Made by a program: the position numbers and the translations under genes | Part shown: piece after piece, positions 2,597 through 25,998 of the stretch | Position numbering within the stretch: the stretch's first letter is position 1 | How the letters are laid out: each line of letters opens with the position of its first letter | Notes under the pieces: generated by a model | Told to the model about the DNA's origin: nothing | What the model saw: the letters and a program-made list of their open reading frames with translations, nothing else | Databases searched by the model: none | Virus record (IMG/VR): IMGVR_UViG_3300042893_002673 | Coordinates: 1-30,076 of that record | DNA: 30,076 bases | From: a virus | Direction: 5' to 3' (one strand)

Positions 2597-3613
2597 CTAC
2601 TCAGATCCGGCCAACAGCTTCGGGTGGACGCGGATCTGGAAAATCGGGACGAAGGCACCGACGGACTTGCGGAAGGGCCTTCCGGGCAGCGGGACGAGCG
2701 TGCGGAGAAGGGTCTGCAGGCGCTGGAAGGCCTTGGAAACCCGGTCGTAATCCGGGTCGGAGCCGCGCGGGTTCCGCCATTCACCTTTGGCGGCGAGCGT
2801 CATGAGGATGCCGAGCGGGTGTTCCGGGCCGAGTTGCTGGCGTTTCGGGAAGGTGTGGCTGCCCTCCTGGCCGGGGGCTTTCAGGTGGATGGTCTGGTTG
2901 CCGGCGATCTCGATGCGGACCTGGCTCCAGGTCAGGCCGTTGCCGGCGTGGATCACCGCCCGGACCTTCGGTTCGGCGGGGCCGCGGGGCTTGGTGATGG
3001 CCGGCAGCGGCACCCGGACCGCCGGTTGGGCCTCGATCTGGGCGAGACGTTCGGCGAGATCGACGAATTCCAGACGGTTGCGCACGCGCAGCGCCTCCAT
3101 TTCGGCGGTGAACCAGACATGGGTCGGGAACAGGACGGTCGATTCCGAGCGCACGGCCAGTTCGCCGAACAGCCCCTGATAGTCGCCGAGGCGACCGGGC
3201 GGCAGGAAGAGCAGCACCGGGCTGACCCGGCCAAAAGGATCCTGGCAGGAGCCGATGCGCCGGAGATTCCCCTGATTCTCCCAAGCGCCGTAGTCGAAGC
3301 CGATGGCCGCCGACAAGGCTTGGGCAACCGTGTCCCAATGCGGTTGGAGTTCCGCGACTTCCGCCGCCTTGAACGGGATCGGCGGCAGGTCGGCGTGGTC
3401 GTCCACCGCGACGAAGTCCTCGTCACCATCCACCATCAGCTCCAGCATCCGCCGCGGGTGCCGCGGGTCGATGACACAGCGCCCCGGCTTCCCGGTCGGT
3501 TTCAAGAACGGGGCGCAGGCTTCCCAATCGCCGCCGAGGTGATGCCGCCAGTTGCAGGCGGCCGAGCCCGCGGCCCCGAGTGCCTCAAGCGCTCTCCAGA
3601 AAGACGGTTTCAT
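2597..3613 (-). CDS. Unidentified protein, second gene of minus-strand pair
   Basis: A 338-residue soluble protein that I do not recognise. I chose the ATG at 3613 (MKPSFWRALEALG), which overlaps the upstream gene by 29 nt; an in-frame start at 3664 would overlap by 80 nt. The N-terminal half is acidic and Trp-rich (GGDWEACAPF, VDGDEDFVAVDDHADLPPIPF), and the middle has a segment PVLLFLPPGRLGDY. The C-terminal roughly 60 residues (DYDRVSKAFQRLQTLLRTLV, then PLPGRPF) look like a basic winged-helix-type domain. The coding strand is clear because the opposite-strand frame has the G/R/H/D-rich composition of a GC-driven shadow. The pair points away from the phage early operon, where repressor, anti-host or superinfection genes often lie. 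Confidence 0.7.
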   Translation of the reverse strand: MKPSFWRALEALGAAGSAACNWRHHLGGDWEACAPFLKPTGKPGRCVIDPRHPRRMLELMVDGDEDFVAVDDHADLPPIPFKAAEVAELQPHWDTVAQALSAAIGFDYGAWENQGNLRRIGSCQDPFGRVSPVLLFLPPGRLGDYQGLFGELAVRSESTVLFPTHVWFTAEMEALRVRNRLEFVDLAERLAQIEAQPAVRVPLPAITKPRGPAEPKVRAVIHAGNGLTWSQVRIEIAGNQTIHLKAPGQEGSHTFPKRQQLGPEHPLGILMTLAAKGEWRNPRGSDPDYDRVSKAFQRLQTLLRTLVPLPGRPFRKSVGAFVPIFQIRVHPKLLAGSE

Positions 3614-4766
3614 GGCAGGGGTTGGAGAATCCGCGTTCGGCGAGCCACGGTTCGATGGCGTCATCGAGGTGCAGGCCGGACACCTTGTCGCGGTGCGGGT
3701 TGAGGATCACCGGCACCAGTCGCCGCCTGGCCGCGATCTTCAGGTCGATCCGGGCCTCCAGCAGGACGGCGCGCTGCAGGAGCGAGGAGTTCATTTCCGC
3801 GAGACTTTCGAAGATGTTGCCGCGGGTGATCAGCACCTGGCTCCCGCCGGGAAGCCCGACCTTGAGTGAGGCCAGCTCGGCGAACTGGATGCGCGACGCC
3901 GGGTCGCATTTGAGGATGGAGGGGCCTTCCCGCATCGGTTCGAGCGAGTAGCGCTTGGAATGCACCAAGGCCGTGGGCGAGGCGTGGAAGACCGTGCCGA
4001 AGGCCTGGCGGTAGAGTTCCTGCAAGCGGCGGCCGATCCCGGAAATCTGCCATTCGCCGGTGTGGTGGCGGTAGTGGGCGACGTCCACCCGCTCGGGGCG
4101 GAGGATCTTCGACGCCGGGCTGCCGTCCTCGTCGAACACGCCGATGCGCTTGAGCAGGTCGCCGTGCCGGATGACGAACGAGGTGCCGGCGGCTTCCTCC
4201 CGGACGTGGACGCGACAGATGCCGGATCGCGCGTTCTGCTCGAACCAGGGCCGGAGCAAGTTTTCCAGGTGCCCGATGCGATGCCCGGTCGGCGGCAGGA
4301 ACTTCAGCTCCGGGTTGCGGGCGAAGGAGACCAGCGAGCGTTTCGCCTGTAGCGCCTGGCGATCGAACTCGCGCCAGGCGACGTCTGGCGCGTGAAGGAG
4401 GATCTTCACCGCGAGGTCTTCCGCAGAGTCGTCCGCTTCCAGCAGGCGGGCCACCAGGCCCTCGTAGCCATCCTCAAAATTGACGCCGCTTTGGGGATCG
4501 GAAATCAGGTCCAGCAGCTCCAAACGCTCGACGAGCTCGGAGGGAGTGGATTCCACCGGCGAGGTGATGACGGACACCACGTCGTCGAGAGCCGCCGCGG
4601 AAATGCCGATCTGCTCCAGCGGGGCTCCGCGCGCGGAAAAGTAGGCCGCGAAGGGGGCGAGCAGGGAAACGACACTCGATGATTTCAGGGTGGAAAGGAC
4701 GCCGGGGCGGACAAGGCGGGGTGTGCGGATCGCGGGCATGGGTTGAAACGGGTGAGCTGTTCTCAT
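3585..4766 (-). CDS. Unidentified protein, first gene of minus-strand pair
   Basis: A 393-residue protein without membrane segments or a motif I can name. Start candidates are ATG 4766 and ATG 4739 (MPAIRTPRLVRPG); neither has a Shine-Dalgarno sequence. The first 130 residues are helical and acidic. The middle is rich in Arg/His (RRQALQAKRS-like, FVIRHGDLLKRIG, DVAHYRHHTGEWQI), and the C-terminal third has alternating strands (VGLPGGSQVLITRG, RRRLVPVILNPHRDKV). It is transcribed divergently from the recombination operon across a 293-bp gap filled with repeated CCGGAC sites, so its promoter probably shares those operators. A role as regulator or partner of the next gene is inference from position only. 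The 29-nt overlap with the next gene implies co-translation. Confidence 0.7.
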   Translation of the reverse strand: MRTAHPFQPMPAIRTPRLVRPGVLSTLKSSSVVSLLAPFAAYFSARGAPLEQIGISAAALDDVVSVITSPVESTPSELVERLELLDLISDPQSGVNFEDGYEGLVARLLEADDSAEDLAVKILLHAPDVAWREFDRQALQAKRSLVSFARNPELKFLPPTGHRIGHLENLLRPWFEQNARSGICRVHVREEAAGTSFVIRHGDLLKRIGVFDEDGSPASKILRPERVDVAHYRHHTGEWQISGIGRRLQELYRQAFGTVFHASPTALVHSKRYSLEPMREGPSILKCDPASRIQFAELASLKVGLPGGSQVLITRGNIFESLAEMNSSLLQRAVLLEARIDLKIAARRRLVPVILNPHRDKVSGLHLDDAIEPWLAERGFSNPCHETVFLESA

Positions 4767-4879
4767 GAACAAAATTAGCAGCCTTGTGAACCCCGAAATC
4801 TGAACCCTTGGAAAATGAACCTCCGGGCGATTCCGGGATTCTTTGGAGAGCCGAAATGATCTGCAGGCCGGAACCGAAA

Positions 4880-5012
4880 CCGGACACTTTTTGGCCCAAA
4901 ACCGGACATGTCCGGAGGGCTGTCCGAAAAAGTCCGGAAAATATCACCATTGTGGGTCAATGGATTGCGGTAAAAGCGGACACTTTTCCCGGACCTTTCC
5001 GGACATGTCCGG
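4880..5012. promoter_or_regulatory. Operator array: CCGGAC/GTCCGG sites with two 14-bp palindromes
   Basis: The perfect palindrome CCGGACATGTCCGG occurs at 4902-4915 and again at 4999-5012. Single half-sites CCGGAC or GTCCGG occur at 4880, 4932 and 4989, and near matches at 4922 (GTCCGA) and 4976 (GCGGAC). A longer element, (C/G)CGGACACTTTT, is present at 4880-4891 and 4976-4987. All lie in the gap between divergent transcription units. Repeated dyads in such a gap are the usual architecture of phage repressor operators. The binding protein is unknown; no classic CI-like repressor is visible in the window. Confidence 0.6.
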
Positions 5013-5035
5013 GGAAGAGGACGACGGCGGGCCAA

Positions 5036-5041
5036 TTGACA
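5036..5041 (+). promoter_or_regulatory. TTGACA start-associated motif
   Basis: TTGACA ends 18 nt before the ATG at 5060. It is the first of eleven occurrences upstream of starts in this window and supports 5060 rather than 4808 as the start of the ATPase gene. Spacing excludes a normal -35 role for this gene. Confidence 0.5.
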
Positions 5042-5059
5042 CCCCGCCGCATTCGTCCG

Positions 5060-6055
5060 ATGCAAACCACCACCAAATCCACCCCTCCCCTGGCGATCCG
5101 CCGGGGCAAGATCACCCGGCCGCAGAAGGCCGTTGTTTACGGACCCGAAGGCGTCGGCAAGTCGACGCTGGCGGGCCGTCTGCCGGATCCCGTCTTCCTC
5201 GACACCGAAGGCGGCACCCACCACCTGGACGTCGTCCGGCTCGATGCCGCCTCGACCTGGGACGAGATCACCTCCGCGGTCGGCCAACTCGCGAAGTCGG
5301 ACCACCCGTTCAAGACGCTGGTGATCGACACCGCCGATTGGCTGGAGAAGCGGCTGGTCGAGCACCTGTGCCGGAAGTCGAACAAGGATAGCATTGAGGA
5401 TTTCGGGTATGGCAAGGGCTGGGTGATTCTGGCCGAGGAATTCGCCCGCTTCCTCCACTCGCTCGACGCCCTGCTCGACCGCGGGATGCACGTCGTGTTC
5501 CTCGCCCACGCCACGGTGCGCAAGTTCGAGGCGCCGGACCAGGCCGGCAGCTACGATCGCTTCGAGCTGAAGCTCAGCAAGCAGGTCGCGCCCCTGCTCA
5601 AGGAGTGGGCCGATGTCGTGCTGTTCGGCAACTACGTCACCAAGATCGCTGAGAAAGACAACGGCAAGCTGCGCGGCGTCGGCGGCAAGGAGCGGGTGTT
5701 GTTCGCCACCCACTCGGCGGCCTACGACGCCAAGAACCGCCATGGTCTTCCTGACAAACTTCCTTTCACCGTCGAGGCCCTGGCCCCGGTGTTCGGCGCG
5801 GCGGCGGAGTCGGGGGGCTCCGTCGCCGCAAGCCCGGCCGCGGCGCCGTCGCTGGCCGACCAGCTCCGCGAGGCATTCGGTGCCCGCGAGGCGGAGGTGA
5901 TTCCATTCCTCGTCAACCGCCAGCAGATCAAGGCGGGCGAAAGCTGGGAGGCGGTCCCGGAGGAATACGGTAACCGGGTGCTGAGCGCGCCGGACCGCTT
6001 CCTCCAGGCCGTCGCTGAATTCCAGCAAGCGCAGGAGGTCGCCGTCGCACGATGA
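5060..6055 (+). CDS. RecA-fold ATPase, Sak4-like phage recombinase (AAA_24 type)
   Basis: A 331-residue ATPase with Walker A GPEGVGKST (residues 28-36) and Walker B KTLVIDTADW (about 85-94). The layout is that of the AAA_24/Sak4 family of phage single-strand annealing or Rad51-like proteins, which promote recombination and replication restart with an SSB and an exonuclease. The conserved block around residues 130-200 (DAEEFARFLHSLD-like, VVFLAHATVRKFE, YDRFELKLSKQVAPLLKEW) fits this family. The frame is open upstream to 4808, but that extension would translate the operator palindromes, so the ATG at 5060 is preferred. The gene overlaps the downstream nuclease by 4 nt (ATGA) and opens the early operon. 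Confidence 0.8.
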   Translation: MQTTTKSTPPLAIRRGKITRPQKAVVYGPEGVGKSTLAGRLPDPVFLDTEGGTHHLDVVRLDAASTWDEITSAVGQLAKSDHPFKTLVIDTADWLEKRLVEHLCRKSNKDSIEDFGYGKGWVILAEEFARFLHSLDALLDRGMHVVFLAHATVRKFEAPDQAGSYDRFELKLSKQVAPLLKEWADVVLFGNYVTKIAEKDNGKLRGVGGKERVLFATHSAAYDAKNRHGLPDKLPFTVEALAPVFGAAAESGGSVAASPAAAPSLADQLREAFGAREAEVIPFLVNRQQIKAGESWEAVPEEYGNRVLSAPDRFLQAVAEFQQAQEVAVAR

Positions 6056-7050
6056 GCGCGCTGCGTCCCTCCAACCTGCCGAAGCTGGCGGTGTGCCCGT
6101 GCTACGAGAGCAATCCCGTGGCCGGCCCGGCCGCCGAACGCGGCACCTTGCTCGACACCGCGTTCCGCGCCGAGCTGCTCGGCCTCGAAGAACGCTTCGT
6201 GATCGCCAACAAACTGAACGCCGACGAAATCGCGGCGGTTTCCTGGTCGGTCTCGATGGTGCGGGCGATCTCCGGCCGCGAACGGGTGCTGGCCCGCGAG
6301 GACGACTGCCGGGTGCGGATCCTCAACCTCACCGGCACGGCGGATGCCATCGTTCCGGCGAAGTTTAGCCACTTCGACCTGAAGACCGGGGCGCGGCGGA
6401 ACTACCGCGAGCAGATGGCGGCCTACGCGCTAGGACTGATGGGCGCGCACTTTGCCGGCGAGTGGACCGCCCACCTGTTGTTTTGCGACCAGCGGGAAAT
6501 CGAGACGATCAAGTTCAGCTACGAAGAGGCGCACGCCATCGTCGACCAGGTCGTCAAGTCGTTCAACGACCCGGGCAAGAAGCCGAGCCCTTGCGAATAC
6601 TGCTCGTGGTGCGCGAAAGCGGACACTTGTCCCGCGCGGCTCGCGATGGTCGGTGAGTCGCTCGCCGTCGCCGATCCGGGCTTCGATTTCGACGCGGTCC
6701 TCGCCGACCCGGAGAAACTCGGCAAATTCCTGGTCGCCTCCGCGGTGGTCGAGGACTTCCGCGACCGGGCGAAGAAGATCGCGACCGAGCGGCTCAAGAC
6801 CGGCGGCACGGTCCCCGGCTGGAAGCTGGTGACCCGCAAGGGCAGCGAGTTCGTCGATTGCGAAACGGTCGGCCACCACATCCAGCGGATCGGCTTCGGC
6901 CCGGTCCTCGCGGCCTACGGCAACCTCTCGGCCGCCAAGTTCCGCGACCTGTGGAGCCAGCGGATGCCGAGCGAGCAGCCCTTCCCGGACGAGGCGGTGA
7001 AGCACGCCGCGCCCTCCACCTATCTCAAACAATCCAAAGCCAAACCATAA
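6052..7050 (+). CDS. Cas4/RecB-like PD-(D/E)XK exonuclease with apparent Fe-S cluster
   Basis: A 332-residue nuclease. Catalytic motifs visible are GTAD (95-98), D109-x-K111 in SHFDLKTG, and the QMAAY motif at 121-125, the RecB-family order. Cysteines C184-x2-C187-x5-C193 (plus C181) near residue 190, together with C15 or C17 near the N-terminus, match the split four-cysteine 4Fe-4S arrangement of Cas4 and AddB nucleases. It resembles the phage PD-(D/E)XK/DUF2800 proteins. Directly coupled to the Sak4-like ATPase (ATGA) and followed by an SSB-like gene, it most likely resects DNA ends for phage recombination. The last roughly 130 residues are a less conserved helical tail. Confidence 0.8.
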   Translation: MSALRPSNLPKLAVCPCYESNPVAGPAAERGTLLDTAFRAELLGLEERFVIANKLNADEIAAVSWSVSMVRAISGRERVLAREDDCRVRILNLTGTADAIVPAKFSHFDLKTGARRNYREQMAAYALGLMGAHFAGEWTAHLLFCDQREIETIKFSYEEAHAIVDQVVKSFNDPGKKPSPCEYCSWCAKADTCPARLAMVGESLAVADPGFDFDAVLADPEKLGKFLVASAVVEDFRDRAKKIATERLKTGGTVPGWKLVTRKGSEFVDCETVGHHIQRIGFGPVLAAYGNLSAAKFRDLWSQRMPSEQPFPDEAVKHAAPSTYLKQSKAKP

Positions 7051-7056
7051 CTCACC

Positions 7057-7467
7057 ATGCCATCCTACACCGCAGCCATCCCTAGCGAACGCCCTGAATT
7101 CGTCGAATCGGGCGACCACGAGGTCGAAGTCGTCGACGCGATCGAAACGATCAGCAAAGGCGGCCACGAGATGATCGAGCTCAAGCTCAAGACATCCGCC
7201 GGCAGCTACCTCTACGACTTCCTCGTCTTCATCCCGACCGCGTTCTGGAAGATCGACGCCTTCCGCGCCGCCACCGGCGAGGAGGTGACGCCCGAGGTGG
7301 AGGTCGAGATCACGCCCGATCACGTGATCGGCCGGACCGGCACCGCCCGGCTCACCGTCGAGGAATACAACGGCAAGAAGCGCAACAAGGTCGCCGCCTG
7401 GATCGTCGGCACCGCGAAGCCCGCCCAACCCCAACCCGCGCGTCGCAATGACAACGAGCCATTCTGA
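7057..7467 (+). CDS. SSB-like protein (DUF669-type), phage
   Basis: A 136-residue protein with a compact beta-rich body (EVEVVDAIETISKGGHEMIE, LKLKTSAGSYLYDFL, a Trp at WKIDAF) and a C-terminal linker rich in Pro, Gln and Arg ending in NDNEPF. The acidic tail ending in Pro-Phe mimics the protein-recruiting tip of bacterial SSB (DDIPF). Phage DUF669 proteins in this position, between a Sak4/exonuclease pair and a helicase, are thought to bind single-stranded DNA. The start is 6 nt after the previous stop. The body has no clear OB-fold signature that I can verify by eye, so the SSB call rests on tail, size and context. Confidence 0.65.
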   Translation: MPSYTAAIPSERPEFVESGDHEVEVVDAIETISKGGHEMIELKLKTSAGSYLYDFLVFIPTAFWKIDAFRAATGEEVTPEVEVEITPDHVIGRTGTARLTVEEYNGKKRNKVAAWIVGTAKPAQPQPARRNDNEPF

Positions 7468-8974
7468 GACGATGGGCCTCCGCGCCTATCAAATGAAAGC
7501 CCGGCAGGACATCCACAAGGGCTTTGAGGACTTCGACCGCCAGCTCGGCGTGCTGCCAACCGGGGCCGGGAAGACGATCCTGTTCAGCCGTCTGGCTCAG
7601 GACTACCAACCCCGGCGCACCTTGATCCTCGCCCACCGCGAGGAACTCATCACCCAGGCCGTCGATAAGTTGCGCGTCTCCACCGGGATCGAAGCCCAGG
7701 TCGAGATGGGCGAAGATCGGGCGGCGCTCGATGCGCCGGTGGTCGTTGCCTCCGTCCAGACGCTGATGCGCGAGAAGCGCCGCGAGCGCTGGCCGCGGGA
7801 TCACTTCGGGCTGGTCGTCGTCGATGAAGCGCACCACGCGCTGGCCGACAGCTACCTCAACACGCTCGGGCATTTCCACGATCACGCGAAGGTGCTGGGC
7901 GTAAGCGCGACGCCGGACCGCGGCGACAAGAAGAACCTCGGCCGGTATTTCGAGAACATCGCCTGCGAGGTGACCTTGCTCGATCTCATCAACCTGGGAT
8001 GGCTCTCGCCGATCCAGGTGAAGACGGTTCCGCTGGGGATGGACCTGCGGGGCGTGCGGACGAGCCATGGCGACTTCAGCGCCGATGACCTCGGCCATGC
8101 GCTGGAGCCGTATCTCGAACAGATCGCCGACGTCCTGGTGGAGCACCGGCACCGCAAGACGCTCGTGTTCCTGCCGCTGATCGCGGTCTCGAAGCGTTTC
8201 GCCCAGATCTGCCGCGACCGCGGCTTGCTGGCCGAGCACGTCGATGGCCAGACGACCGAGCGGCAGGCGACCTTGGGGCGGTTCAAGCGGGACGAGACCC
8301 GCATCCTCTGCAACGCGATGCTGCTCACCGAAGGCTACGACGAGCCGTCGATCGATTGCGTCGTCTGCCTGCGGCCGACCAAGATCCGGGCGCTCTACTC
8401 GCAGATCATCGGCCGCGGCACGCGGATCTGGCCGGGCAAGGACCACCTGCTCGTGCTCGATTTCCTCTGGCAGGCGGAAGAGCACACCCTGATGCGGCCG
8501 GCGAACCTGATCGCGGAGGACGAAGCCGACGCGAAGGCGCTCACCGAGAAGCTGGGGGCCGAGGGCGACCTCGAAGAGGCCCGCGAGGAAGTGAACGCGG
8601 ATCGGACCAAGTCGCTCACCGAGCGGCTGCGCGCCAACCGGACGCGTCCCGGCAGCGTGCTCAATCCGCTGGAGCTTGCCGTCTCCCTCAACGAAGCCGC
8701 CCTGGCCGACTACGTCCCGACCATGAAATGGCAGGCGGAAGCGCCCACGGACAAGCAGCTCGATGTGCTGGCGAAGTTCGGCTTGGACATCCTGAGCATC
8801 CAGTCGAAGGGCCACGCCTCGCTGATCCTCGACCGCCTGATCACCCGACGAAAGCTCGGGCTGGCGACGCCGAAGCAGGCCCGCGTGATGCGCCGCTTCG
8901 GCCACCAGCGTCCGGAAACCGCCACCTTCGAGGAAGCCAAGGCATTCCTCGACGCCCAATTCGCCCACCGCTGA
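7448..8974 (+). CDS. Superfamily 2 DNA/RNA helicase (DEAH)
   Basis: A 508-residue helicase. Motifs by residue from the ATG at 7448: Q-motif-like LRAYQMKARQ (11-20), Walker A PTGAGKT (37-43), DEAH (126-129), SAT (153-155), helicase C domain with KTLVFLP (about 237), TEGYDEP (294-300) and motif VI QIIGRGTRIW (319-328). After about residue 340 comes a charged linker and a C-terminal helical region with KQLDVLAKFGLDI and GLATPKQARVMRRFG, typical of phage replication helicases of this type. The chosen ATG overlaps the SSB-like gene by 20 nt; the ATG at 7472 (MGLRAYQ) would avoid overlap and is equally plausible. Likely role: unwinding during phage replication or recombination. Confidence 0.9.
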   Translation: MTTSHSETMGLRAYQMKARQDIHKGFEDFDRQLGVLPTGAGKTILFSRLAQDYQPRRTLILAHREELITQAVDKLRVSTGIEAQVEMGEDRAALDAPVVVASVQTLMREKRRERWPRDHFGLVVVDEAHHALADSYLNTLGHFHDHAKVLGVSATPDRGDKKNLGRYFENIACEVTLLDLINLGWLSPIQVKTVPLGMDLRGVRTSHGDFSADDLGHALEPYLEQIADVLVEHRHRKTLVFLPLIAVSKRFAQICRDRGLLAEHVDGQTTERQATLGRFKRDETRILCNAMLLTEGYDEPSIDCVVCLRPTKIRALYSQIIGRGTRIWPGKDHLLVLDFLWQAEEHTLMRPANLIAEDEADAKALTEKLGAEGDLEEAREEVNADRTKSLTERLRANRTRPGSVLNPLELAVSLNEAALADYVPTMKWQAEAPTDKQLDVLAKFGLDILSIQSKGHASLILDRLITRRKLGLATPKQARVMRRFGHQRPETATFEEAKAFLDAQFAHR

Positions 8975-8978
8975 TCCC

Positions 8979-11003
8979 ATGGCCAAATACCGATCCACCG
9001 GGCTCGCCATGGCCTTGCCGCGCCGCACGCTGGAATACCTCCAGCGCGGCGCGAGCGAGGGCATGCGCAATGCCGAACTCTTCGACGCGACTTGCCAGTT
9101 CCGCGACGCCGGCCACCCGCTGGAGGAAACGGAAGCTCAACTACTCGCCCGCGCGCTGGCCGACGGGCTGACCGAGGCCGAAGCGAGGACGACCATCCGC
9201 TCGGTCTATGCCCGCACGTCGCGGGAACCGCTCGGCGCCGGCGTGGCGCCGATGCCGAAGGTCCCGTCGGCATCACCCCGGCGGCCGGCACCGCCACCGG
9301 TCCATCGCGAGCGCTCGACGATGGCGCTGCCGGTCACGCTCGACGACGGTTTCATCCGCCTGCTCGACGCGTGTTTCCAGCCGGATGAATTCGTCGCCAT
9401 CTCCCCGGCGGCCGAGAACGAGGAGGGCGAAATCGCCCCGCGCCGTGGCGTCACCCTGACGACATCCGAGTGGAAATCGAAAGTGGCAGCCAAGGGCGGG
9501 ATCGACCGCGTGTTCGGCACCAAGCTCGGGTTGTTCCTGCGGATCAACCCGATGGCGAAGGGCGGCGCGAAGAACGAGGATGTCACCGCGTTCCGCCATG
9601 TCCTGGTCGAGTTCGATCGTGACGAGGCCGGTAAGCCGATCCCGAAGGAAGAGCAGTATCATGCGGTCGTTGCCAGCGGCATGCCGGTGGCCGCGCTTAT
9701 CGACTCCGGCAACAAAAGCCTGCATGCGTGGATCCGCGTCGATGCGCCGGACGAGAAGGAATACAAGCGGCGGGTCGAGGTGATTTGGGAGTGGTTTTCC
9801 GGCATCAACCTGGACAAGCAGAACCGGAACCCGTCACGCCTGTCGCGCTGCCCGGACGGCTGGCGCACGGTCGATGGCGATGTCCGCCGCCAGTGCTTGC
9901 TCGCGCTGGAGCTCGGCGCGGAATCGTGGACGGCGTGGGAGGCGGCGCACTCGAATTCCGACCTGCCGCCGATCCTCCCCGGCCAGGCATTCATGGGCCA
10001 GCCGGAACCCGAGCCGCCACAGCTCGTCGACGGCATCCTCCATCAGGGTGCCAAGATGGTCCTCGGTGGCCCGTCCAAGGCGCGCAAGAGCTGGTCGCTG
10101 ATCGACCTGATGCTCTCGGTGGCCACCGGCACGCCGTGGTGGGGATTTCCGACGCGCCGTGGCCGCGCCCTCTATCTGAACTTCGAGCTGCCGCCCTTCG
10201 CGCTGCAATACCGGATCCACCGGATCGCGGCGGCCAAGGACATTGCCGACTTCACCGGCTTCGACATCTGGAACCTGCGCGGCCACGCGACCGACTTCTC
10301 GGCCCTGATCCCGAAGATCCTCGGGCGCATCCGCGACACCGGGTATTCGCTGATCCTGATCGACCCGATCTACAAGGGCCTCGGCGCACGGAACGAAAAC
10401 GACGCCGGCGACATCGCGAGCCTGCTCAACGAGGTCGAGCAACTGGCGGCGAAGTCCGGGGCGGCTGCCGTGTTCGGAGCCCACTTCTCGAAGGGGAACC
10501 AGGCAGGCAAGGAGTCGATCGATCGCATCGGCGGCTCGGGTGTGTTTGCCCGCGATCCCGACGTGATCCTGACGATGACTCCTCACGAGGAGGACGATGC
10601 CCACGTCATCGACCTCACGCTGCGCGCCCTGCCGCCCGTGAAGCCCTTCGTCGTCCGCTGGTGCGAGTCGATCTTCATCACTGATCGGAATGCAGATCCT
10701 GCCCAGCTCAAGGCTCCCCAAGGCAATCCCAAGAGCGAGAAAGCAAAGACGACCTACAAGATGGGCAGCGCGGCCGACCGCTACGCCAGCGCCGTCGAGA
10801 CCATGCCGCCACTCGCCAACGGGCGGGTCGCCCAGGAGTCCGAGGTGATCGCCTACATCTCGAACCGGATCGCCGAGATCGACGGCGATTGCACGCTCAA
10901 GGAGGCCCAGCGCGTCTTCTACTGCCTCGCCAACATGAAGTCGGGACCGCTCGTCTTCGACAAAGCAACCCGCCTGTGGAGGGGGCGCAATCATGCAATT
11001 TGA
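8979..11003 (+). CDS. Primase-helicase (PriCT, primase-like and RepA-type ATPase domains)
   Basis: A 674-residue multidomain protein. Residues about 20-80 (RGASEGMRNAELF, GLTEAEARTTIRSVYAR) resemble a PriCT module. Residues about 200-295 contain FRHVLVEFDRD and GNKSLHAWIRVDA followed by NRNPSRLSR, the order seen in archaeo-eukaryotic-type (prim-pol) primases. Residues about 350-600 are a RecA-fold helicase of the AAA_25/RepA group, with Walker A-like GGPSKARKS (363-371) and Walker B SLILID (457-462). The last 55 residues form a small domain (EVIAYISNRIAEIDG, LKEAQRVFY, TRLWRGR) that recurs as a separate gene at 11250. It ends the tightly packed replication operon. Confidence 0.85.
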   Translation: MAKYRSTGLAMALPRRTLEYLQRGASEGMRNAELFDATCQFRDAGHPLEETEAQLLARALADGLTEAEARTTIRSVYARTSREPLGAGVAPMPKVPSASPRRPAPPPVHRERSTMALPVTLDDGFIRLLDACFQPDEFVAISPAAENEEGEIAPRRGVTLTTSEWKSKVAAKGGIDRVFGTKLGLFLRINPMAKGGAKNEDVTAFRHVLVEFDRDEAGKPIPKEEQYHAVVASGMPVAALIDSGNKSLHAWIRVDAPDEKEYKRRVEVIWEWFSGINLDKQNRNPSRLSRCPDGWRTVDGDVRRQCLLALELGAESWTAWEAAHSNSDLPPILPGQAFMGQPEPEPPQLVDGILHQGAKMVLGGPSKARKSWSLIDLMLSVATGTPWWGFPTRRGRALYLNFELPPFALQYRIHRIAAAKDIADFTGFDIWNLRGHATDFSALIPKILGRIRDTGYSLILIDPIYKGLGARNENDAGDIASLLNEVEQLAAKSGAAAVFGAHFSKGNQAGKESIDRIGGSGVFARDPDVILTMTPHEEDDAHVIDLTLRALPPVKPFVVRWCESIFITDRNADPAQLKAPQGNPKSEKAKTTYKMGSAADRYASAVETMPPLANGRVAQESEVIAYISNRIAEIDGDCTLKEAQRVFYCLANMKSGPLVFDKATRLWRGRNHAI

Positions 11004-11525: not shown

Positions 11526-12067
11526 GCTCCGACGACTACGCGAAGAAGCAGAGCCGGCGGGATGGCGAGTATGAGCGCGAATACGAGGCCTGGGTGAAGT
11601 CGATGTCCCTCGATGAACGTCGGGAGGCGGAGAAGCTCGGCCTGCTCAAACCCTGCCTGCAACGCCATGGCAACGGCGCTGCCGACCAAGACATGGCCGA
11701 TACCCCTGCGGCCAGCCACACGCCGGACATCGCGGCCCTGGTCGATCACGAGGGCGATCCGGCCGGCGCCGTCACGCGTGATGCCATCGAGGTGCTCCGG
11801 CATTTCGTCGCCGACCTGATTTCCGAAGGGAACACCCGGCTCACCGTCGAGTGCCTGGCCGTGGCTCTCGGGCTCAGCGCCTACAACGGCGAGAGCATGA
11901 CCACCATTGCCAAGCGCCACGGGGTGTCCCGCGCCGCCGTCTCGAAGCGCTGCGTTGACATCACGCAGCAACTGAACCTCCCGCCGTCCCGCGCCATGCG
12001 CAGCGAGAAGGCACGCCACATCTACCAACGATCCCAGCTCGACCAACACCTGCACAACAATCCATGA
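11522..12067 (+). CDS. Helix-turn-helix DNA-binding protein
   Basis: A 181-residue protein. The first 60 residues are charged and helical, and a linker follows. Residues about 105-150 contain a helix-turn-helix (VECLAVALGLSAYNGESM, TTIAKRHGVSRAAVSKRC) reminiscent of sigma region 4 or small-terminase HTH modules. The ATG at 11522 overlaps the previous stop (ATGA); the open frame further upstream to 11435 would overlap the preceding gene deeply and is rejected. Context, right behind the replication block, suggests an early-to-late regulator or an origin-binding protein. Both are inference. Confidence 0.7.
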   Translation: MSSDDYAKKQSRRDGEYEREYEAWVKSMSLDERREAEKLGLLKPCLQRHGNGAADQDMADTPAASHTPDIAALVDHEGDPAGAVTRDAIEVLRHFVADLISEGNTRLTVECLAVALGLSAYNGESMTTIAKRHGVSRAAVSKRCVDITQQLNLPPSRAMRSEKARHIYQRSQLDQHLHNNP

Positions 12068-12678
12068 GCACGCTCACCACCCTTGCCATCAGCGATCCCA
12101 AGTTCTCGATCACGCCCACCGGCATCGAGTTCAAAGAAGACCTCAGCTTCGAGGAATGGGACGACCTTGGCCAAAAGCTCGCCCCCATCGGCAAGTCCAT
12201 CGGCTTCATCATCGGCGACTGGATCAACTACGGCGAAAAGAAGTGGGGCGACAAATACGAGGAGGCGATCAAGCGCACCGGGATGGCCTATCAAACGCTC
12301 CGTCACTACGCCCACGTCGCACGCCGCGTTCAATTGTTCTGCCGGCAGAACAAACTCGGGTTCGAACACCACGCCGCGGTCGCGAAAATCAAAGACCCCG
12401 AGGAACAGCAGCACTGGCTGAAGATGGCGGTGAAGCACAAGCTCGGGAAACGCCGGCTCCAGAAGTCGATCAACTTCGGTCGTCTGGCCACCGAGAAGGA
12501 AGTCCAGGGCGATCCCGCCGACCGCGGCTACGTCACCTACCTCGCGCTGCTGAACCGCATCCGGCGGTGGTGGGCGCGCGAAACCGAGAAGGCCCCCGTC
12601 GAGGAATGGGACGAGGACCGACGCCAGGGACTCAAGAGGGACTTCAAGTTCGTCGTCGACATCTACGACGCGCTCTAA
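12064..12678 (+). CDS. Putative DNA-binding protein (LmbU/ParB-HTH-like)
   Basis: A 204-residue protein with a central block IGDWINYGEKKWGDKYEEAI, TLRHYAHVARRV, FEHHAAVAKI, EEQQHWLKMAVKHKLGKRRL. This order resembles the helix-turn-helix region of LmbU-like regulators and of phage/plasmid proteins annotated as ParB-HTH-like. Family assignment is from memory of the pattern and is tentative. The gene is coupled to the preceding HTH gene by ATGA overlap, forming a three-gene unit from 11250. The C-terminus is acidic and Trp-rich (RRWWARETEKAPVEEWDEDR). The unit ends six bases before a tRNA-like sequence. Confidence 0.6.
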   Translation: MSTLTTLAISDPKFSITPTGIEFKEDLSFEEWDDLGQKLAPIGKSIGFIIGDWINYGEKKWGDKYEEAIKRTGMAYQTLRHYAHVARRVQLFCRQNKLGFEHHAAVAKIKDPEEQQHWLKMAVKHKLGKRRLQKSINFGRLATEKEVQGDPADRGYVTYLALLNRIRRWWARETEKAPVEEWDEDRRQGLKRDFKFVVDIYDAL

Positions 12679-25908: not shown

Positions 25909-25998
25909 AGCCGCGTGCGGGATTCGAACCCGCATCCCCAGCCGAAACGACTGGACGCTACCCAAGCCGGTATTCATTCCCGGTTACGCCAACGCGGC
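25909..25998 (-). pseudogene. tRNA-derived relic on the minus strand
   Basis: Reading the minus strand, the T-arm GCGGG-TTCGAAT-CCCGC is perfect and is followed by ACGCGGC, which pairs at all seven positions with GCCGCGT at the other end (25998-25992). Upstream of the T-arm is CCAGT-CGTTTCG-GCTGG, a 5-bp anticodon-like arm lacking U33, and before that a D-loop-like CTTGGGTAG. About 20 extra bases separate this from the acceptor strand, no D-stem forms and no CCA is encoded. It fills most of the gap between portal and protease genes. Confidence 0.4.

Follow-up and report, generated by a model that had tools for sequence, protein, structure and literature searches.

Several described systems come close to the locus analysed here. 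In phage lambda (OL/OR with CI looping, and cI-rexA-rexB), palindromic operators are paired between divergent early units with phased spacing, and RexA is encoded beside the switch. It biases that switch (PMC11077077). A kinship of RdgC, lambda RexA and kinetochore proteins has been published (PMC4080450; PMC11077077), and both RdgC and RexA bind DNA without sequence specificity (PMC11077077). Phage regulators directly under host LexA are represented by the Gifsy-type antirepressors (PMC3121763), the pairing of an HTH_3 protein with an IrrE/M78-type protease by ImmR-ImmA of ICEBs1, and a half-site common to inverted and direct repeats by the iteron origins (RepE, pi). Phage switches under LexA and operators in phased pairs are already known; what would be new at the present locus is their combination with an RdgC/CENP-N-like protein pair and no recognisable repressor.

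The window, by which we mean the whole stretch of DNA analysed (30,076 nucleotides of an IMG/VR virus record), is collinear with a prophage in a Verrucomicrobiaceae MAG, with 88-95% nucleotide identity over 4226-30076. An initial annotation had pointed to a dense array of dyads between divergent transcription units, and the flanking genes bear this out: the array sits between the minus-strand pair A384/B338 and a rightward Sak4/exonuclease/helicase/primase operon of a Verrucomicrobia prophage, beyond which lie the terminase, portal, protease and major capsid protein genes (Table 1). The start of the A gene, placed at 4766 by the annotation, was corrected to 4739 from relatives, and a LexA box between this start and the array had been missed.

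Table 1. Features of the array and of the genes on its two sides (window coordinates).
Feature	Position	Strand	Remarks
B338	2597-3613	-	overlaps partner A384; no Pfam or PHROG match; weak nuclease-like fold and OmpR-type winged helix likeness
A384	3585-4739	-	RdgC/RexA/CENP-N-like fold; no Pfam or PHROG match; start corrected from relatives
LexA (SOS) box TGTTCTCATGAACA	4758-4771	-	18 bp upstream of A384 ATG
Extra half-site CCGGACACTTTT	4880-4891	+	22 bp before distal dyad
Distal dyad CCGGACATGTCCGG	4902-4915		perfect 14-bp dyad; core GGACATGTCC invariant across relatives
Extra half-site GTCCG	4922-4926	-	
Extra half-site GTCCGG	4932-4937	-	
Central inverted repeat CCATTG-N5-CAATGG	4947-4963		between the dyads; common to part of both A/B lineages
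Extra half-site GCGGACACTTTT	4976-4987	+	96 bp from its partner at 4880
Extra half-site CCGGAC	4989-4994	+	10 bp before proximal dyad
Proximal dyad CCGGACATGTCCGG	4999-5012		centre ~55 bp upstream of Sak4 ATG; position same in relatives
Inverted repeat GGCGGG...CCCGCC enclosing TTGACA	5026-5048	+	conserved Sak4 leader element
Sak4-like ssDNA-annealing ATPase	5060-6055	+	first gene of rightward operon
Exonuclease	6052-7050	+	phrog_69; Pfam DUF2800
Single-strand-binding-like protein	7057-7467	+	weak phrog_378
DEAD/ResIII-type helicase	7448-8974	+	
Primase / AAA_25	8979-11003	+	

In common with lambda, the locus has paired palindromes between divergent early units, phased spacing and, beside the putative switch, a protein of the RexA fold group. 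It differs from lambda in the short distance between the dyads, only ~97 bp, and in that host LexA very probably controls A/B. RexB belongs to the membrane proteins, whereas the model of B338 shows a compact domain protein, and no CI/S24 or HTH_3 repressor gene was found in the window's lineage. Because a linked repressor was sought and not found, we do not class the locus as lambda-type immunity. A phage regulator very probably under host LexA recalls the Gifsy type, although A384 and B338 are much larger and their genes adjoin the array, and a repressor that they might target was not found.

The annotation had counted two perfect palindromes 97 bp apart and at least five further half-sites within 133 bp, together with an element, CGGACACTTTT, repeated 96 bp apart; all of these are present. 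The two dyads are separated by 97 bp from start to start, and CGGAC/GTCCG half-sites begin at 4881, 4903, 4977, 4990 and 5000 on the plus strand and at 4910, 4922, 4932 and 5007 on the minus strand, giving nine in 133 bp, four within the dyads and exactly five besides. No other 133 bp of the window holds more than three, so that the density is not matched in its unrelated coding DNA, and 200 Markov-shuffled windows gave at most six half-sites per 133 bp, which places the array far above chance. Run blind over the window, a detector for matching dyads separated by 60-150 bp returned this pair and no other. In two host genomes (5.7 and 5.3 Mb), CGGACATGTCCG occurs only as this pair. Taken with the conservation described below, these results make it very likely that the array is a real regulatory nucleoprotein site.

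Some neighbouring elements were considered on their own. An IHF/HU-like site between the dyads was rejected: a perfect WATCAANNNNTTR is present in a few loci, and overall such sites are not above the null. The TTGACA of the Sak4 leader is not taken for a sigma-70 -35 box, as no fitting -10 accompanies it and no promoter-like site was found in 4700-5120; in some relatives (L018, L022) the GGCGGG/CCCGCC repeat before Sak4 stays without the TTGACA. A structured leader RNA was likewise discarded, Rfam giving no match except a tRNA-like one far away. A tRNA-like match with an undefined anticodon lies at 25909-25998 (-), between the portal and protease genes. Between the LexA box and the array, TGAACC direct repeats at 4787-4822 are kept in close relatives (L007, L013, L084, L086, L108), and a perfect 20-bp palindrome, TTGTTCTGCCGGCAGAACAA, lies at 12334-12353 within the gene at 12064-12678.

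Sak4 relatives were collected (80 viral and 41 genomic), and dyad positions in them refer to the second codon of the Sak4 gene, which lies three bases past the A of the ATG. The dyad pair is kept at the same place in 24 relatives. Those whose A384 exceeds 45% identity carry the core GGACATGTCC at both places, the exception being L039 with one intact dyad, and no other block of the control region is as strongly conserved in these relatives as the dyad cores. Two classes of spacing occur: 97 or 98 bp, in 17 loci, and 87 or 88 bp, in seven. The A tree implies at least 2-3 independent switches between them, each by about one helical turn; within the lineage, operator spacing is quantised in helical turns. 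Extra dyads in relatives lie at 22, 32 and 53 bp, same-orientation half-sites are spaced with peaks at 11-12, 21-23, 32-33, 44 and 53 bp, and their periodicity is ~10.5 bp (multiples of 10.5-11 bp; vector strength 0.61 at 10.5 bp). The L004 subgroup, with 123 bp, does not fit this phase, nor do L221/L222, with 101 bp. The viral records searched reach 51.7 kb in length, and 14 of the 16 contain GGACATGTCC exactly twice. Unbiased scans of IMG/VR agreed, in that the records with A, B or Sak4 detected all have a dyad spacing of 87, 88, 97 or 98 bp, and twins at other spacings sit in unrelated contigs.

Conservation, spacing and host-wide specificity thus strongly uphold the annotation's operator region; its proposal of a duplicated operator unit fits less well. 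The conserved part is the dyad pair at a helically phased distance, whereas the additional half-sites, the CGGACACTTTT element among them, differ freely from relative to relative, and L028, L034 and L008 lack most of them.

The sequence flanking the cores differs among relatives (CCGG, AGTCGG, ATCGG and GGG types), and this variation follows the leftward genes. Differences in the dyad flanks correlated with those of A (Mantel r 0.68) and B (0.67) and hardly with those of Sak4 (0.10) or the exonuclease (0.11), despite Sak4 being the nearer gene; the partial correlation of operator with A given Sak4 was 0.70, and given A there was no effect of Sak4. With this comparison, and with no HTH_3, S24 or RHH repressor gene found, the annotation's suggestion that a minus-strand protein binds the array has become the leading reading. 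Inheritance as one block may also account for the co-variation of the flanks with A/B.

Twin dyads precede Sak4 in 21 of 22 loci of the A384 lineage and 15 of 17 of the A383 lineage, and in none of the loci where A/B has been replaced (0/6 and 0/9, 0/15 in total); elsewhere we counted three in 1.22 Mb. The replacements without twin dyads are an RHH-like gene, a label read from the sequence and without a Pfam match, or an SMC-type ATPase with a histidine kinase and response regulator. Twin dyads were absent from 15 of 17 wider A/B loci sampled, and no arrays were found upstream of A in these wider loci. From the lineage counts and the 15 loci without twins, it follows that twin dyads accompany A/B near Sak4 and are not universal for A/B. 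In the window's lineage, A/B was the only linked module found to change with the dyads. Two gene arrangements were recorded in passing. Upstream of Sak4 in L040, L065, L099 and L101, an SMC/RecF-like ATPase of 629 aa stands in place of A/B with a different repeat set, joined in L040 by a HisKA/HATPase protein and a response regulator; in L006, L008, L016 and L024, HsdM-like genes (type I restriction-modification, by reading) adjoin the A/B pair to the left of B.

In a sister lineage, whose A and B are ~25-30% identical to those of the window, the dyads are of the form GTGTGA...TCACAC, at the same place and spaced 108.5-110 or 121-123 bp. The A/B operon of that lineage includes an HTH_3 (XRE) protein and an IrrE/M78-type protease (L004:3455-4521, L014:3645-4771), to which its dyads may belong by way of the HTH_3 repressor. 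This composition resembles lambda in placing a repressor in the A/B operon and resembles ImmR-ImmA in its two genes; in contrast, the window's lineage is without both genes and has the LexA box in their stead. Twin dyads, here GTGAAATTTCAC, are also present in a third and distant A/B lineage, where they are separated by 101 bp and follow B at a distance of 190 bp (L221:11165-11280, L222:7830-7946), an apparent recurrence of the same architecture.

The LexA motif was tested directly on the host genomes. TGTTC-N4-GAACA has 6-8 copies per genome. In all three genomes one copy lies 17-23 bp ahead of the host lexA gene, and a further copy is the box of the prophage A384 gene. Among 22 loci, the box is found within one mismatch in 16 and is missing in six, most of the GGGACATGTCCC class. 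Judged by its motif, A/B very probably belongs to the host SOS regulon. Because A/B would itself be under LexA, we disfavour a role for it as lysogenic repressor.

Structure models were obtained for both proteins (pLDDT 84 for A384 and 86 for B338). Foldseek matched the A384 model to CENP-N (E 1.6e-5) and RdgC (E 6.7e-4), and VIA aligned it with CENP-N (Z 11.7) and RdgC (Z 10.5), with further resemblance to CENP-L and Iml3. Since the match is in fold alone, A384 is not classed as RdgC; when 34 members were searched for a match to a Pfam family such as RdgC, no family drew hits at E <= 1 from more than a single member. From the RdgC/RexA/CENP-N-CENP-L (Iml3-Chl4) group, A384 differs in an extra N-terminal helical part, in its constant neighbour B338 and in the lack of a Pfam or PHROG sequence match. 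Residues 231-326 of the B338 model gave several OmpR-type chains, weakly (Z ~5), and OmpR-type homology was rejected at the level of sequence (hhalign probability <1%). An active PD-(D/E)XK nuclease was also rejected for B338, whose invariant columns lack the D...ExK set, as was a defence system for the two proteins (PADLOC without a match); sequence search found no relatives with a solved structure.

The A/B pair is widespread in Verrucomicrobia. Its genes overlap and in one locus occupy one shared reading frame, which, along with their wide co-occurrence, suggests that A and B form a complex. Fusion-like single long frames of 709-732 aa were seen at L213:319-2514, L091:6430-8625 (same genome as L213) and L229:9152-11281, the B part being confirmed by profile only in L213.

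We propose that the array is a paired operator in the early control region of a prophage family of Verrucomicrobia (Akkermansiaceae/Verrucomicrobiaceae). A phage-encoded DNA-binding factor would sit on both dyads, aided by the helically phased half-sites; both would probably be occupied simultaneously on one face of the DNA, with the segment of ~90 bp between them bent or looped. The factor would come from the A/B module and would most likely be the A384-B338 complex itself. Host LexA would silence A/B until DNA damage, whereupon A/B, once produced, would work at the array and shift the Sak4-exonuclease-helicase-primase operon from the lysogenic to the induced state; A/B would more likely drive induction than serve as lysogenic repressor. 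We judge the chances that the A/B module supplies the binder to be even, and for bridging or looping between the dyads the case is equally balanced on either side. Activation by A/B at the array is a tentative proposal, somewhat on the doubtful side. The best overall explanation, a paired operator switched by an SOS-controlled A/B module, for which we infer the binding, the simultaneous occupancy and the direction of control, is one that we hold to be about half probable. More tentative again is its fullest form, in which A384-B338 would be a sequence-specific DNA-binding complex with the RdgC/RexA/CENP-N fold. Its target sequence would have shifted several times along with the proteins, the geometry of two sites being preserved, and the switch, directly under host LexA, would have taken the place of an ImmR/ImmA-type repressor and protease pair.

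If this is true, the locus would add a phage switch that has no classical repressor, from a phylum on whose phages there has been almost no work, and one early operon would swap whole control modules (LexA with A/B; XRE with IrrE-type protease and A/B; RHH-like; SMC with a two-component system) as its recombination genes are kept. To the RdgC/RexA/CENP-N fold group, known for phage and bacterial members that bind DNA non-specifically, it would also add one with sequence specificity. Since nature provides a series of dyads, GGGACATGTCCC and AGTCGGACATGTCCGACT versions among them, with their matching proteins, recognition lends itself to direct tests.

The twin dyads could instead be lambda-like operators of a repressor encoded elsewhere on the prophage, with A/B acting as a LexA-controlled antirepressor or a recombination accessory. 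Palindromes of 14-18 bp suit a dimeric repressor, LexA-controlled antirepressors are known in Salmonella prophages (PMC3121763), and the XRE repressor and IrrE-type protease of the sister lineage adjoin dyads at the same place. The dyad flanks nevertheless track A/B and not the rightward genes, and the right-hand genes tested are common to the lineage with other dyads. The search for such a repressor bore out the annotation, which had seen no standard repressor gene: in three host genomes, the contig that bears the array had no HTH_3 gene (the collinear prophage is on one such contig, of 232 kb), 15 of 16 viral records gave no HTH_3 match above the cut-off, and neither S24 nor RHH_1 was found in the 10 records searched. 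We regard a separate repressor as rather unlikely; it may be of an unrecognised type.

Less probable still is that the array serves as a replication origin of the iteron type, for which A/B or another initiator would be the binder and the dyads the autoregulatory operators. The array adjoins the replication operon, and a half-site common to inverted repeats and to direct repeats of ~21-22 bp in some relatives is an iteron-like trait; in L018, L020, L022 and L025, long direct repeats CTATCGGACATATCTCGCAGG (20-22 bp) of the half-site, variable in number, stand beside the twin dyads. Dense GGACA/TGTCC arrays also lie within ORFs of unrelated phages (L265:6140-6240, L288:3662-3731, L257:509-608), the ORFs in L288 and L257 being replication initiators or helicase loaders. 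Against an origin, the window has few and slight direct repeats and many relatives have none, only the two dyads, and no initiator gene or family was recognised. Cumulative GC skew peaks at the array and has no minimum there, a weak indication since transcription also diverges at this point. A centromere-like partition or recombination site of the prophage, finally, is very improbable. Phased repeat arrays do resemble plasmid centromeres and the fold of A384 matches CENP-N, CENP-L and Iml3, but this likeness is uninformative on function and suits RdgC/RexA equally; no partner of the ParA type was seen next to the array, whose position is tied to the Sak4 start.

Twin GGGGACATGTCCCC dyads ~141-142 bp apart, with GGGACA half-sites outside them, were noticed in four further phages (L303:1073-1223, L304:2024-2174, L308:3702-3853, L314:1986-2136). 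These phages are without A/B or Sak4, and in L303 and L314 the twins lie beside a primase-like gene.
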